A stretch of DNA of 64,000 nucleotides, from NCBI GenBank assembly GCA_000739535.1, contig DF820465.1, forward strand, positions 721,064-785,063, in the 5' to 3' direction. The stretch comes from Candidatus Vecturithrix granuli (GTDB lineage Bacteria > Moduliflexota > Moduliflexia > Moduliflexales > Moduliflexaceae). Made by a program: the position numbers and the translations under genes. The notes under the pieces are model-generated. The model was not told where the DNA came from and searched no databases. It was given only the letters and a program-made list of their open reading frames with translations. This document shows positions 13,273 through 20,122 of this stretch, one piece after another. How positions within the stretch are numbered: position 1 is the first letter of the stretch; each line of letters starts with the position of its first letter.

Positions 13273-14553
13273 TTATTGGCTGCCTTTTGCCAACGCTTGA
13301 TTCGATCCTTCCACAGCTTTTTGCATCATCTCTTCTACAGATTGCACGCCCACAACAGGCCCTTCCAGATGGGGTTGAATATATTCCCGTTGAATCGTAT
13401 ATAACTCTGAAGAAAAGGGCAGACGAACCGCATATTGGAGCTGTTTATACGCCACCATATAATTGGGATTGGCTTCGTAGAAATCTTTCATCAACGAAGA
13501 CTCGACCGCAGAAATGCGCACCGGCATATAGCCTGTATTCTTTGACCAATAGGCAGTCTGTTCCGGTTCTGACATCCATTTGATAAAGGCCCACCCGGCT
13601 TCTTTTTCCTCTGGTTTTGCCTCTTTCACCATGACAAAGAACGTTCCCCCTGAAGGAGTGGCAAAATCCTGCTTTTTGGGAAGAAAAGCGGTGCCAACCT
13701 GAAAGGAAGAATTATCAGTCAGATACGAGAGGAAAGCAGTGGAAGTGAAAATGATCGCCACCTTTTCATTGATGAAGTCGGTATTGGTCACTTCCCAGGC
13801 ATTATAATCTTGTCCCGGAGGATGTTTCATGACTTGATCTTTGTTTACCAGATCGACCCAAAATTGGAGCGCTTCTGCTCCTGCCTCGCCAAAAGCAGCC
13901 TCCGTACCAGTTGCATTCGTCAAGCTTCCTCCGGCCTGGTACACCATGGCAAGCCAGAACCACCAGTCAACCGGCACTTCAAAACCCCAGACCTTCACTT
14001 CGTTCCCTTCACGTACGGTCAGTTTGGCTGCCGCTTCACGCAGTTCATCCCACGTGGTAGGAACGTTTACCCCTTTTTCCGCGAGCATGTCTTTGTTATA
14101 GTAGAGCAGAGGAGTGCTGCGATTGAAGGGAATTGCAAAGAGCGGAACCTCTTTTCCCAGGTAATCGAAATACCCATCCTGGGTCAGCCCGGGGACAAAA
14201 TCCTTGAGATCGGTCGGATTGTCTCCCGTGGCGTAGGGTTCTAAGTTTTCGAGGATTCCGGACTCATAGAGGCTGGGAAGAACTTCAGGGATCGAATGGA
14301 AAATAGTCGGGGGCGATTTGGTGACGATGGCCGCGCGTACCTTCGCAATAGCCTGAAAGTAATCCCCTTGAAAAGATCCTTTAATCTGATACTTTGATTG
14401 AGATTCGTTAAACTGCTTGATCATCGCTTCTGTCACTTCTCGATTCTTCCCCCCATAGGAATACCAGAAGGTCGCAGTTAACGGTTCGGCAGAGACCAGA
14501 AGACCCCAGCCGACAACAAACAGGGTCATAAATAGTTGAGCAACCTTTTTCAC
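13273..14553 (-). CDS. Extracellular solute-binding protein, UgpB-like
   Basis: A 426-residue periplasmic binding protein of the carbohydrate family 1 type, with a signal peptide (MKKVAQLFMTLFVVGWGLLVSA). The mature start LTATFWYSYGGKNREV resembles UgpB, which binds glycerol-3-phosphate and its diesters. Other family features are KVRAAIVTKSPPTIFHS, FNRSTPLLYYNKDML and GWAFIKWMSEPEQTAYWSK. It heads a minus-strand cluster with two permeases and a URO-D protein. Its position near pst/phoU fits a Pho-regulated glycerol-phosphate importer, but a sugar substrate is equally possible. Confidence 0.9.
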   Translation of the reverse strand: MKKVAQLFMTLFVVGWGLLVSAEPLTATFWYSYGGKNREVTEAMIKQFNESQSKYQIKGSFQGDYFQAIAKVRAAIVTKSPPTIFHSIPEVLPSLYESGILENLEPYATGDNPTDLKDFVPGLTQDGYFDYLGKEVPLFAIPFNRSTPLLYYNKDMLAEKGVNVPTTWDELREAAAKLTVREGNEVKVWGFEVPVDWWFWLAMVYQAGGSLTNATGTEAAFGEAGAEALQFWVDLVNKDQVMKHPPGQDYNAWEVTNTDFINEKVAIIFTSTAFLSYLTDNSSFQVGTAFLPKKQDFATPSGGTFFVMVKEAKPEEKEAGWAFIKWMSEPEQTAYWSKNTGYMPVRISAVESSLMKDFYEANPNYMVAYKQLQYAVRLPFSSELYTIQREYIQPHLEGPVVGVQSVEEMMQKAVEGSNQALAKGSQ

Positions 14554-14794: not shown

Positions 14795-15141
14795 CGGTAT
14801 GCTTTGCGAGAACTTAACAGCCCTGCCGTCAACGGGGGAATTTGGAAATACACCTCTCATGTGTGCTTTCCCGTGTTGACGGGGGGATTGAGGGGTGAAT
14901 CAAAACTGTCCGAATGGCGAAACGCATGAATGCACAGCGACATTTGTAAACGCTATCTTGCTCCGTAAGCTGATGGTGTCTCACAATGTCCATCAAACTT
15001 TCTTTCCGATACTCTTACTAGCCTATATTCAGCAGGAGAACACGTCAAGCAATTTAGGCTGCTGCGCAAAATCTGCTTTGAAACATCTTGACGGTTTCCG
15101 CATACGTCAATATCAATACATAAGACGGAAACCGCCCATCT

Positions 15142-15246: not shown

Positions 15247-16122
15247 ATGAGTCAGTTGTTTAACCTGGGATCCTATTCGTTTGGAAAGAACCTGAAGCCT
15301 ATGCCTATCAAAAACCTGATCAGTCTATATTGTTTGGGAAATGTAACGGAGACTGATTCCCCTTGCGAACAATTGCTACCGCCGAAAATTTGCCGCTTGC
15401 TGCGCGATTGTGTACTGCGCGTGATTTTTGAGCAGGGGCGTTGCCGTCCTACAACAGAGCTTTTGCGACCAACGGTGGCCGGTCAATTACGACGCTATCG
15501 CGATCTGTTCTCACCTGATGCGCCTGAAGATTATACAGATTCTTTGACCTTCGAACTGGTCAAACAACTGGAACCACAACGCCTCATCGATCATCCTACC
15601 CTGCCGGGTTTGAAATCCTATTTCAATGTTACGGCCGCTCACGCCGTTGTTGATCTGCTCGAAGATTTGGCGCTGCTTCTGGCCAGAACCTGCGGCAATT
15701 GTATCCACCTTTCCTCTGTAAAACCTTATGTCTGTCAACATACTGAAATGCCCTGGTACAGGCAAACTTGCATCCCCTCAGAAAAGGCCTGTCGCGAAGG
15801 ATTCGAAGCCTATACGCTGGAGCCGTTAACTTTCATGACACCCGCGCCGCCTGCTGCTGAAATCTCCGTCGCCGCACTTGAACTGGAAAACCTGCTGCTG
15901 CTCCTGGCGAAACGCGCAGAACAGGAACAAGGGCCAAAGCGCAAGCAGATCTATGAACGCCAATTCAGCATCTTTTCTGCGTTTTGCCATCTGATAATGC
16001 AGGGTTATACCCGCAAAGAGGTGTTTGATGAAATCCTGCGCTTACTTGACGTCGGTCACAAGCTGCTCAAAAAAGATCTGCAAGAAATTAAAAAATTTTT
16101 TGTGCAAAAAAAGGTGCTGTAA
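15247..16122 (+). CDS. Cysteine-rich, divergent sigma-factor-like protein
   Basis: A 291-residue soluble protein I do not recognise with certainty. Residues about 85-140 (DYTDSLTFELVKQL then LKSYFNVTAAHAVVDLL) follow the spacing of sigma-70 region 2 in ECF sigma factors, where an acidic helix precedes a W/F..IA.N...D.LR helix. The last 50 residues (GYTRKEVFDEILRLLDVGHK) look like a region-4 helix-turn-helix. Between them is a putative metal site, C149-x2-C152 with C163, H165, C175 and C182. The next gene is a zf-HC2 protein 46 bases downstream, which supports a sigma/anti-sigma-like pair. No clear ribosome site was seen; 15301 is an alternative start. Confidence 0.6.
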   Translation: MSQLFNLGSYSFGKNLKPMPIKNLISLYCLGNVTETDSPCEQLLPPKICRLLRDCVLRVIFEQGRCRPTTELLRPTVAGQLRRYRDLFSPDAPEDYTDSLTFELVKQLEPQRLIDHPTLPGLKSYFNVTAAHAVVDLLEDLALLLARTCGNCIHLSSVKPYVCQHTEMPWYRQTCIPSEKACREGFEAYTLEPLTFMTPAPPAAEISVAALELENLLLLLAKRAEQEQGPKRKQIYERQFSIFSAFCHLIMQGYTRKEVFDEILRLLDVGHKLLKKDLQEIKKFFVQKKVL

Positions 16123-16168
16123 GGCCAAAAATTCTCCTCTTTAATAAAATAGGAGGGAAGATTTTACT

Positions 16169-16873
16169 ATGAAAACACGACATCAGGCGCAAGAGGCTGC
16201 TGCGGAAGGATTTCTGGATAAAATCGAACAGATCGCCGCACAGTCGCGTCAAGGGCAGAGAAAAGTGAGCAGCTCGCAGACGCAGCATCCTTCGGGAAAA
16301 TTGCTCTATGAGTATGCGGCCGGCAACCTGGAACGCGAACATGCCTCGCAAATCCGCCGCCATTTAATGCGCTGCGCGGCGTGTAATTTTGCCACGTTAG
16401 CGATCATGCGGCTGACGTCCGGTGAAATAGTCGCCCATCCGATCTTTGACGACTTGCAAGCGTTCATTCAGAATTGGACTGAAAAGGTAAAAGGCTCGCT
16501 TGATGCCGCGACCAGGGTTACGGCCCTCTGGCAGCCGCAATGGGCCGGACAGCTCACAACGGCCGCGGATCTCCCGGCGCAGGAACATCTGTTTGCTTTA
16601 GATGAAGGCGCGATCAGGCTGTCCTGCATTTGGCAGCCGCAGCATCGCAAAAAACCGGCGTTTATCGAGTTAACCTGGAACGCAGACCTCAAAGTCCGCA
16701 GCGATCTCAGCGCGTTGTTTATTCGGCTTGAAGATCCCCAACACGCACAAGTGGAAGTGCCGCTCGGCAATGACCTGCGCGGCGATAAGATCATCACCAG
16801 CGGTGAATTAGGCTTTGATCCATCCCGCGAACGCTGGGCAATCGCCTTGATACTCCACAACAATGGCGCTTGA
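16169..16873 (+). CDS. zf-HC2 (anti-sigma-like) zinc-finger protein
   Basis: A 234-residue protein with no membrane segment. Residues about 41-80 carry the zinc-binding anti-sigma signature H65-x3-C69-x2-C72 (RRHLMRCAACNFA), preceded by the usual LLYEYAAGNLEREHA helix. The C-terminal 110 residues look beta-rich (AIRLSCIWQPQ, PAFIELTWNADL, LFIRLEDPQHAQVEVPLG) and may bind a ligand or partner. AGGAGG lies 11 bases upstream of the ATG. It is sandwiched between the sigma-like gene and the Lon-like/STAND gene, so I infer a regulatory role within that unit. Confidence 0.75.
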   Translation: MKTRHQAQEAAAEGFLDKIEQIAAQSRQGQRKVSSSQTQHPSGKLLYEYAAGNLEREHASQIRRHLMRCAACNFATLAIMRLTSGEIVAHPIFDDLQAFIQNWTEKVKGSLDAATRVTALWQPQWAGQLTTAADLPAQEHLFALDEGAIRLSCIWQPQHRKKPAFIELTWNADLKVRSDLSALFIRLEDPQHAQVEVPLGNDLRGDKIITSGELGFDPSRERWAIALILHNNGA

Positions 16874-16888
16874 AGGCCATAACCGCAC

Positions 16889-16923
16889 AATGTGCCCGGC
16901 ACTTCCAAGGTGCCGGGCACATT
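16889..16923. terminator. Strong hairpin before the STAND gene
   Basis: AATGTGCCCGGCAC (16889-16902) and its exact complement (16910-16923) form a GC-rich 14-bp stem with a 7-base loop in the 75-base gap between the zf-HC2 and STAND genes. It is not followed by a T-run, so it may be an attenuator, processing site or translation control element. The STAND start codon lies 25 bases further on. Confidence 0.45.
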
Positions 16924-16948
16924 CCCATAGGGAAAAGGAACGACTATC

Positions 16949-19810
16949 ATGAACATGCACTTTGCCTATCCGAATGCTACAGATGGGGTCTTTCTGGGCT
17001 GCGGCCGCTATGTCGTGTTTGCATTAGGTCAGGAACCGGCCGAGTATGAGATTGCGGATCCTTTTTCCGCAAAAGTGCATGAAGTGCTTGAAGCCGCTGC
17101 AATATTGGCCCCTGAGCCCGTGCCCTCGGGTTATTGTGTGTATGAAACCAAAGATTCGGATGACCCCAATCTGCTGTATCGAGGCGACTCGCTTCACCTG
17201 GCTTTTTTATTGGCGCTGATCAGCCGCGCCCGATTCTTGCGCTCCTATCTGTGCCAGACCGACCTGTGGTGTACCGGCGACATCACGCTGCGACAGCCGC
17301 GGCAGCCAGTCTTAGAACCGGTTTCTCAAGCTGGCTTCGATGTAAAATTAGCCGCGTTTCTCGGCCCTGACAATCCTGACCGATTGTTTATTGTCCCGTT
17401 TGCCAACATGGCCGATCAGGTAACCATCCGGGATTTTCTGAGCCAACGCGAGGATGTTGAGATTGCCACGCTCGAATGGTTGTTGCAGCGCCAGCCGGCC
17501 GCGCAAAAAGTCATCATTACGGTACAGGGACACGAGTTACAGGCACTCGTTGATCGCTTGTTCGACAAACCTGAGCCGGTCATGCTCTGGCAGGGCGAAC
17601 CGGACGTGCCGGAACACTGGGTGGAGCGTAGTACGCTGATGGACGCGCTCAAGCAGGATTGGCAGACCCCGGGCTGCTGTATCAACGCGTTGATCGGCCT
17701 CGGAGGAGAAGGCAAAAGCGCGTTGGCGCGAAAATGGCTGCATGATCTCTTACCGGCGTTCGGGGCGCGCCTGGAAGGGGTGATCTGGTGGAATTTTGCA
17801 CTCCAACCCAGCGTGGATGCGTTCTTTGAAGCGGTTTATCTCAAATTGTTTCATGAGACTGCCGGCGAACGCGGTGCCGTATCTGCCCTGGCGCAGCAGG
17901 TCATGCAAATGATGCGTCATGGCCGTTATGTGTTGATCCTCGACAGCCTGGAAAGCGTGTTAACGCCTGCTGAACATGGGTGCGGGGCCGTCCGCCACCC
18001 TGATCTGCGCCGGTTACTCGACGTATTGAGCGATCCGTCCGGGCAGTCCTTCTGCCTGCTGACCAGCCGCTGCGAGATCGAAGGATTGGTTTGCCGGACG
18101 CATCAGGTCGCGCGGCTGAGCCAGACCGAAGGGCGGAAACTCCTCCAAAATATGGGCGTTTCGGACGATGAACCGACCTTGAACGCGATTGTCGAACAGT
18201 GGCACGGACACGCGCTTTCCCTCAAATTATTCGCTGCGCACCCGGCTGAACTGTCTGAAAAAACCGCGTTCAGCCCGGCGGCAACCATGCTGGAATATTA
18301 TGATCGCGTTCTGACTGAGGCGCAGCAGGCGTTCTTGCAATGCCTGAGCGTCTTGCGCCGGCCCGCGGATTGGCGCATGTTAGAACGTGTGTTTCGCCGC
18401 CCGCCGCTGCGGCGTTTGAGTTTGGCAAAATCCTTTGCCGCGCTCGAAGACCGGGAGTTTGATGAATTGTTGGAGCAACTGCGCCGTTACCGTCTGCTCA
18501 ACGAGAATACCCAGCATACGGCCTACGCGGCCCATCCGCTGATTCGCGCCCATTACCGCGAGCAACTACAGCGAACCCCGCAAGCCAGGCAGCGCCGCCT
18601 CCATCATCACCTCGCTCGCGGTTACGAGCGCAATAGCCCGACCGTGACTGAGACCTTAGAGTCGCTTGCCTTCCTGATAGAAGCCGTGCATCACGCCTGT
18701 CAGGCCCGGGAATATGACACGGCTTACGATCTGCTCTGGCAGCGCGTGAATCAATACCCGCGTTTTGTGCTCTCGGATGTCTTAGGCGCGTGGGAGACCT
18801 ATTTGGCCTGCCTGTTAGAATTTTTTGTTGACGGCGAACCGCAGGTCAGTGACCTGAAACAGCAAGCCTCGCTGCTGCACGAAGTGGGCTTTTGCCTGAT
18901 GACCCTGGGGCGTTTGCGCGAAGTTCCGCCCTATTATCAGCGCTCGATTGCATTGCACAATGAGGTTGACAACTGGTTAGGCGTCAGCCGCGGTTACCAG
19001 AATTTAGTCGAACTTTACATGTTTTTTGGCAAATTGAACCAGGCCGCAGAGGCCGCAGACCAGGCCCTGGCTTTTGCCCGCCGCGCTGTTAAAACAGGAC
19101 AGGAATACGCCCCGCAGCAAGAAATCATCGCCCTTGTTGACCAGGCGACAATCGCGGCCCTGCGCGACGAATCGGACAGGGCAAATATCCTGTTCGAACA
19201 GGCTCAGACGCTCCAGCAGAAGTTGCAGCCCGGGATGCGCTTTTTACGCCAATTAGAAGGCGTCAAACAGGCGGATTTTCTGCGACGGACCGGAGATTTT
19301 GAACGCGCCCGGCAGGTCGCGCAAGCCAACCTCGTCTTCTGCCAGCAAGAGGCATTATCGGATTATGTGTGCCAATGCCATCGCCTCCTCGGCGATTTAG
19401 ACGCGGAAGAGGGGCAGCATGAGCGCGCCGGCCGGCATTACGACGAAGCTTTGCGTATTGTTCGCACGCTCCAGCGCCGCGATGTGCTGATCGAGGTGCT
19501 GCTTGCGCGCGGCATCTGGCAGATCGAGCGCGGCGCGCGTCAGGCCGGCTTCGACGCCCTGCGCGAAGCCCTGAATTATGCGGTTGAGAGCGGATTTCGC
19601 CTCTATGAAGCCGACATTCGCTGCGCCCTGTCCCGCGCCTTTTTCTCGGCCGCGACGTCCGCTGATCTTGCCCCCTCTGCGCGCCGGGAATACCAGGAAC
19701 ATGCCGCCCGCGAGCACGCCCTGGCCCGGCAGATCTGCGAAGAAACCGGTTATAGAGGAATTTCGCGTTACATGTCTTGGGGCAAAGATTCCGGGCCGAA
19801 GCCGGTATAA
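16949..19810 (+). CDS. Lon-like (S16-fold) / STAND NTPase / TPR protein
   Basis: A 953-residue soluble multidomain protein. Residues about 20-160 resemble the Lon peptidase domain: GDS81 in the place of the catalytic-serine motif, CTGDITL (108-114) matching Lon's TGEITL, then GFDVK133LAA matching GGLKEKVLAA, then RLFIVPFAN. Ser81 and Lys133 would be the dyad. An NB-ARC/STAND ATPase follows, with P-loop GLGGEGKSA (250-258), Walker B VLILDSLES (328-336), sensor-like LLTSR (370-374) and a winged-helix-like part near 455-540. From about 600 to 930 TPR-type helical repeats follow. The design suggests a sensor (TPR), a switch (NTPase) and a proteolytic effector. The last gene of the three-gene unit; its 3' end overlaps the xisI remnant. 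Confidence 0.8.
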   Translation: MNMHFAYPNATDGVFLGCGRYVVFALGQEPAEYEIADPFSAKVHEVLEAAAILAPEPVPSGYCVYETKDSDDPNLLYRGDSLHLAFLLALISRARFLRSYLCQTDLWCTGDITLRQPRQPVLEPVSQAGFDVKLAAFLGPDNPDRLFIVPFANMADQVTIRDFLSQREDVEIATLEWLLQRQPAAQKVIITVQGHELQALVDRLFDKPEPVMLWQGEPDVPEHWVERSTLMDALKQDWQTPGCCINALIGLGGEGKSALARKWLHDLLPAFGARLEGVIWWNFALQPSVDAFFEAVYLKLFHETAGERGAVSALAQQVMQMMRHGRYVLILDSLESVLTPAEHGCGAVRHPDLRRLLDVLSDPSGQSFCLLTSRCEIEGLVCRTHQVARLSQTEGRKLLQNMGVSDDEPTLNAIVEQWHGHALSLKLFAAHPAELSEKTAFSPAATMLEYYDRVLTEAQQAFLQCLSVLRRPADWRMLERVFRRPPLRRLSLAKSFAALEDREFDELLEQLRRYRLLNENTQHTAYAAHPLIRAHYREQLQRTPQARQRRLHHHLARGYERNSPTVTETLESLAFLIEAVHHACQAREYDTAYDLLWQRVNQYPRFVLSDVLGAWETYLACLLEFFVDGEPQVSDLKQQASLLHEVGFCLMTLGRLREVPPYYQRSIALHNEVDNWLGVSRGYQNLVELYMFFGKLNQAAEAADQALAFARRAVKTGQEYAPQQEIIALVDQATIAALRDESDRANILFEQAQTLQQKLQPGMRFLRQLEGVKQADFLRRTGDFERARQVAQANLVFCQQEALSDYVCQCHRLLGDLDAEEGQHERAGRHYDEALRIVRTLQRRDVLIEVLLARGIWQIERGARQAGFDALREALNYAVESGFRLYEADIRCALSRAFFSAATSADLAPSARREYQEHAAREHALARQICEETGYRGISRYMSWGKDSGPKPV

Positions 19811-20010: not shown

Positions 20011-20122
20011 ACGCAGCCCCCCTCAATCCCCCCGCAAGCGGGGGGAAACGTTCAATGGTACCCTGCGCTGCTCACGTTTGGCTTCCCCCCGCTTGCGGGG
20101 GGATTGAGGGGGGCTGCGTAAC
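20008..20122. repeat. 40-base perfect inverted repeat
   Basis: The arms at 20008-20047 and 20083-20122 are exact complements over 40 bases and contain CCCCTCAATCCCCCCGC and its complement. The 35-base spacer includes GTTCAATGGTACCC. The element abruptly truncates the xisI frame. It resembles common GC-rich CCCCTCAATCCCC palindromes known from many genomes (general recollection). The region 14825-14890 carries a degenerate half. Confidence 0.85.

Follow-up and report, generated by a model that had tools for sequence, protein, structure and literature searches.

Candidatus Vecturithrix granuli carries, within a stretch of 64,000 nucleotides of its contig DF820465.1 (positions 721,064 to 785,063 of the forward strand; hereafter the window), a cassette of three plus-strand genes, the last of which joins a Lon-like domain to a STAND NTPase and tetratricopeptide repeats (TPRs). 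The open reading frames (ORFs) stand in the order that an earlier sequence-only reading had given them, with the same gaps of 46 and 75 bases. The features of the cassette, in window positions, are as follows.

15247-16122, plus strand: gene 1, an ORF of 291 residues; a regulator by position, sigma identity unproven; cysteine pairs CGNC...C...C
16169-16873, plus strand: gene 2, an ORF of 234 residues (the middle protein); zf-HC2 finger and constant C-terminal domain
16301-16384, plus strand: zf-HC2 finger, gene 2 residues 45-72; Pfam match, H-x3-C-x2-C; otherwise only in locus L016
16517-16870, plus strand: C-terminal constant domain of gene 2, about 115 residues; no Pfam family
16949-19810, plus strand: gene 3, an ORF of 953 residues; Lon-like domain, NB-ARC STAND NTPase and TPRs
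16949-17566, plus strand: predicted Lon-like (S16-fold) proteolytic domain, gene 3 residues 1-206; from fold, profile and conservation
17189-17191, plus strand: codon of Ser81, predicted nucleophile; from sequence, profile alignment and conservation
17345-17347, plus strand: codon of Lys133, predicted general base; from the same three sources
17654-18238, plus strand: NB-ARC (STAND/AP-ATPase) domain, residues 236-430; Pfam 3e-8, above cut-off; P-loop GLGGEGKS
18863-19597, plus strand: TPR region, about residues 639-883; TPR_12 at 4.5e-10, TPR_MalT at 5.8e-6, the latter below its cut-off

The Lon-like domain and its chassis

What is the N-terminal part of gene 3? Searches of Pfam, NCBIfam and PADLOC left it unnamed. 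The sequence-only reading had proposed a Lon (S16)-like domain, and the fold check bears this out: an AlphaFold2 model of residues 1-206, built from four KSB3 sequences (predicted local distance difference test score, pLDDT, 79; predicted template modelling score, pTM, 0.82), places the region in the Lon proteolytic fold. The Foldseek matches listed for this model, with BrxL at the top, were all Lon, BrxL or ComM domains except for one low-probability outlier. On structural re-alignment with VIA-align 2, Lon-type domains accounted for 50 of 50 rows, with Z scores of 13.4 for ComM, 13.2 for human Lon, 13.1 for RadA and 12.0 for BrxL. Against the Protein Data Bank (PDB), a seven-sequence profile found no matches and a four-sequence profile gave only a weak hint (1xhk, E 1.1); a profile of 14 relatives matched MtaLonC (9.1e-6), the Lon proteases of A. 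fulgidus (3.1e-5) and M. jannaschii (3.5e-5), and CalpL (0.016), and up to E = 10 it matched nothing outside this Lon/CalpL group.

The catalytic residues named in the earlier reading, Ser81 in GDS and Lys133 in GFDVKLAA, lie 52 residues apart with CTGDITL between them, exactly as described, and their identification as a Lon-type pair is upheld by the profile alignment. There the GDS of the family falls on the GDS of MtaLonC, Ser81 on its catalytic Ser582 (a PDB entry among the Foldseek matches is titled for the MtaLonC S582A mutant) and Lys133 on lysine 625, a residue number counted along the alignment. The 14 aligned Lon-like sequences have a mean identity of 22% (minimum 12%); only G17, S81, L84, L88 and K133 are invariant in all of them, and Ser81 and Lys133 are the sole polar residues in this set. 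As aligned, the two occupy positions equivalent to the Ser-Lys dyad of Lon. The window's spacing of 52 residues is no anomaly, because relatives span 42-53 (42-44 within one family, 44-53 within the others). MtaLonC and archaeal LonB share the fold and the Ser-Lys positions with the gene 3 domain, which differs from them in being fused to a STAND-TPR region and in lacking the AAA+ ATPase part of Lon. A further match, in genome G134, was discarded as false, being by reading a histidine kinase.

The remainder of gene 3 shows the features of the STAND class, an NB-ARC/AP-ATPase domain with its P-loop, followed by TPRs, in agreement with the Lon-like/STAND/TPR fusion proposed earlier. Residues 208-794 are 29% identical to a TIR/SEFIR-STAND-TPR protein encoded in the same genome (G000:C7; locus L019, 7211-10051). 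The likeness lies in the STAND-TPR chassis, and TIR/SEFIR stands where gene 3 has its Lon-like domain; because the chassis is common to both, the Lon-like domain occupies the effector-domain slot. Unlike the window cassette, the TIR/SEFIR protein has no gene 1/gene 2 pair visible alongside. Its gene adjoins a nucleotidyltransferase-like gene, and nearby lie genes recognized by eye as coding for a HerA-like ATPase and, probably, a DNA methyltransferase; this region of the genome is therefore a candidate for a defence island.

Constant and variable parts across loci

How widespread is the three-part arrangement? Regulator, middle protein and Lon-like fusion are encoded on one strand at three KSB3 loci beyond the window, across two genomes: L016 and L017 in the window's own genome and L018 in another genome (G001) of the same family. 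In the scan of genome contigs, the KSB3 genome was the only genome matched. When the middle protein's constant domain served as the query, matches extended to a distant family (f129), in which the neighbor was again Lon-like at L033, L034 and L035; because the Lon-like neighbor had not been used in finding these loci, they constitute independent confirmation. Searches with the Lon-like domain added L048 and L068, each with a middle gene and a first gene alongside. The three-part layout is thus kept at all four KSB3 loci and at L033/L034, L035, L048 and L068. Its recurrence at three further loci in two KSB3 genomes, together with a dyad invariant in 14 sequences, places the layout beyond chance.

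The constants across cassettes are the Lon-like domain and the domain of the middle protein, the latter found in all KSB3 cassettes and in genomes G130, G266 and G386. The partners of the Lon-like domain vary among STAND-TPR, nSTAND1-WD40, TIR and membrane-WD40 forms: the fusions end in nSTAND1 and WD40 at L016 and L018 and in a TIR domain at L017, the Lon-like proteins of the distant family have a membrane helix predicted by eye, and those of L068 and L049 end in WD40 propellers. The zf-HC2 finger that the sequence-only reading had seen in gene 2 is present (Pfam 2.9e-6 at residues 45-72, with HLMRCAAC supplying the H-x3-C-x2-C motif), and occurs in two cassettes only, that of the window and L016, where it shows the zinc anti-sigma (ZAS) signature.

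Sigma character of the first genes was assessed by hhalign profile comparison with extracytoplasmic function (ECF) sigma factors, nearly all of them from the window's genome, and expressed as Z over column shuffles. By this measure, four cassettes have a sigma-like first gene: L017 and L018 (Z 6.8), L068 (Z 9.9, with Pfam Sigma70_r2 at 0.0029 and r4 at 0.026, in order and both below cut-off) and L079 (Z 4.8). Those of L050 and L081 are not sigma-like in the same comparison. Co-occurrence of the three families, as first proposed, stands in part: the layout recurs in KSB3 and in the distant family, but zf-HC2 is not constant, and a sigma-like first gene is recognizable in some cassettes only.

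Relatives of the Lon-like gene without the two upstream genes, which the earlier reading had named as evidence against a unit, also exist to a degree. They comprise L049, the orphan L080, and L050, L079 and L081, whose middle gene is different. At the last three loci (family f31), a helix-turn-helix (HTH) or sigma-like protein is followed by a different middle protein of 400-430 residues without known family and then by a Lon-like protein bearing TPRs or membrane helices; at L081 the Lon-like gene is present as a tandem pair. At L049 (6540-8711 and 8875-10902), a probable vWA/MopE-type secreted protein, identified by eye, precedes the Lon-like membrane-WD40 protein; no middle gene is detectable there, and the secreted-type gene replaces both regulator and middle gene. 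The Lon-like gene at L080 (6258-6934) is split over two frames, has no partners and appears to be a decaying orphan copy.

Surroundings of the cassette

Flanking genes differ from cassette to cassette. Upstream of the window cassette, on the other strand, lie genes annotated by reading as a sugar ATP-binding cassette (ABC) transporter, and such genes are also found near the L017 copy. Scans of viral contigs and plasmids returned no matches; there is thus no sign of carriage by phage or plasmid. Between positions 14500 and 20600 no Rfam family was found. One structured element lies inside the cassette.

16891-16921, plus strand: hairpin formed by a perfect 12-base-pair inverted repeat, between genes 2 and 3; not followed by a T-run

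It is the sole repeat of this kind found in the window, and it could stabilize or attenuate the transcript. The sequence CCCCCTCAATCCCCCCG occurs on both sides of the cassette, at 14880-14896, 20018-20034 and 20096-20112 (three matches against 0.02 expected), the two copies within 20018-20112 forming an inverted pair. These copies may belong to a genome-wide palindromic repeat or mark the border of an inserted unit.

The cassette as a proposed signalling module

The cassette is real and well conserved. On our reading it represents a form of protease-driven signalling, regulatory or conflict-related, that had no name in the libraries searched. How might it work? The reading we favor, to which we give an even chance, is that the three genes encode a proteolytic signalling module: a Lon-type protease, triggered by its STAND-TPR region, cuts a partner, and a freed regulator changes transcription. 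The TPR/STAND part of protein 3 would sense a signal, perhaps of infection or stress; assembly driven by nucleoside triphosphate (NTP) would gather the N-terminal Ser81/Lys133 domains and so activate them. The activated protease would cut a partner, most likely the middle protein, which would hold the gene 1 regulator, and the regulator, once set free, would alter transcription. The module would thus follow the logic of CalpL/CalpT/CalpS, except that STAND-TPR would do the sensing that SAVED does there, and CRISPR would have no part in it.

Two known systems supply the precedent. In CalpL, a Lon domain at the N-terminus is joined to a sensor at the C-terminus; the sensor drives assembly, and the Lon domain cuts the anti-sigma factor CalpT, freeing the ECF sigma factor CalpS (PMC11417357, PMC12751052). 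In type III-E CRISPR, the protease Csx29 cuts Csx30, the inhibitor of an ECF sigma factor, CASP-sigma (PMC10028731). Because both act in this way, a path from sensor through inhibitor cleavage to regulator release is plausible here. The cassettes resemble the Calp system in the N-terminal Lon domain with a C-terminal sensor and in the three-gene unit with an anti-sigma-type protein, to which sister cassettes add a sigma-like protein. They differ in carrying STAND/TPR, WD40 or TIR where CalpL has SAVED, with no receptor for cyclic oligoadenylate (the Pfam scan of gene 3 found no SAVED, its C-terminal part being NB-ARC and TPR), in the lack of CRISPR genes noticed near the cassette and in a middle protein with a constant domain of its own. 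Csx29 is a CHAT (caspase-like) protease activated by Cas7-11 with target RNA, whereas the domain here is Lon-type.

A third comparison is with the EACC systems. EACC2 has a constant peptidase module with variable C-terminal domains that include STAND NTPases, often stands beside an ECF sigma factor, and has been proposed to work by autopeptidase activation together with that factor (PMC8195603). One constant module with variable C-terminal parts is common to EACC1/EACC2 and these cassettes, but the EACC2 peptidase is a caspase and the domain here a Lon-type Ser-Lys one. The Pfam scan of gene 3 found no EACC1 or EACC2 domain with its trypsin or caspase, a result that does not extend to a direct comparison with EACC profiles, and the protease Lon is not mentioned in the main text of the EACC papers (Kaur et al. 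2020, 2021). No description of a Lon-STAND fusion was found in the open-licence literature searched. What the sequence-only reading had called an unfamiliar new system is thus unfamiliar in its joining of Lon and STAND, but belongs to a kind of signalling already known from CalpL/CalpT/CalpS.

Several observations weigh against the module as we read it. The sequence-only reading had called window gene 1 sigma-like, and this label did not hold: the gene matches no family of Pfam, NCBIfam or PADLOC; compared with sigma factors jointly with its L016 sister (33% identical), it did no better than shuffles in two tests; and its AlphaFold model, at pLDDT 41.8, is unusable. A by-eye match to sigma region 2 was not counted as evidence. 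Going by sequence comparison, "sigma-like" is a fair label for the cassette position, but not yet for window gene 1. The zf-HC2 finger is found precisely where gene 1 is not a canonical sigma factor and is absent where it is canonical, so that a role for the finger in binding sigma is not clear, which weakens a simple sigma/anti-sigma picture for the window. The first genes of L033-L048 in the distant family look HTH-like to the eye alone, and Pfam supports this weakly or not at all. The surroundings of the cassette revealed no defence island, and one flank consists, by reading, of the sugar ABC transporter genes. Finally, proteolysis, its target and any immune role are all inferences.

An alternative that we consider unlikely, though the strongest competitor, is a conflict (abortive) effector: a self-activating or toxic Lon-like protease would attack cell proteins or its own fusion partner, and genes 1 and 2 would merely silence it or regulate the operon, along the lines proposed for the EACC1/EACC2 caspase systems. 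The constant N-terminal domain with variable C-terminal parts, including the TIR effector of L017, matches the published description of EACC2 (PMC8195603), and the chassis shared with the TIR/SEFIR-STAND-TPR protein puts the Lon-like domain in an effector slot. Sigma-like genes beside several cassettes point instead to a transcriptional output, and the target of CalpL, which of the active fusions of Lon with a sensor is the closest, is an anti-sigma factor. Less probable still is ordinary metabolic or developmental control with no role in conflict, in which a MalT-like STAND-TPR sugar switch would direct Lon-like proteolysis of a regulator; the TPR_MalT similarity, below cut-off, and the sugar ABC transporter genes near the window and L017 copies are consistent with it, but the flanking genes differ at each cassette, and swapping of sensors among STAND, WD40, TIR and membrane forms would be unusual for such a role. 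A catalytically dead scaffold for ring assembly or DNA binding, like BrxL, ComM or RadA, is very improbable, for although ComM and RadA score level with true Lon and BrxL heads the Foldseek matches, BrxL has no Ser-Lys dyad (PMC12839542), whereas here Ser81 and Lys133, alone among polar residues, are invariant in 14 sequences, and the domain profile favors catalytic Lon and CalpL sequences.

The lineage itself offers context only: filamentous bacteria are among KSB3 (PMC4312070), in agreement with the view that systems of such a kind are commoner in multicellular forms (PMC7159879).

What would the proteolytic module mean? To our knowledge, protease-to-sigma signalling of the Calp type has been described only where it serves type III CRISPR as an output. 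A more tentative extension of the favored reading, which we rate somewhat below an even chance, is that these proteins are CRISPR-independent receptors, similar to the nucleotide-binding leucine-rich-repeat receptors (NLRs), that have a Lon-type protease as effector and swappable sensors (STAND-TPR, STAND-WD40, TIR or membrane-WD40), all coupled to a single conserved adaptor and a sigma-like regulator, and in which adaptor cleavage turns the detection of an invader into transcription. If true, a CRISPR-free form with swappable receptors would make the trio of protease, adaptor and regulator a general output device for different sensors, a sensor-pluggable use that parallels that of caspases in EACC systems and inflammasomes. 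The cassette offers a substrate hypothesis that can be tested directly and, for STAND proteins, a predicted new effector of the Lon type.

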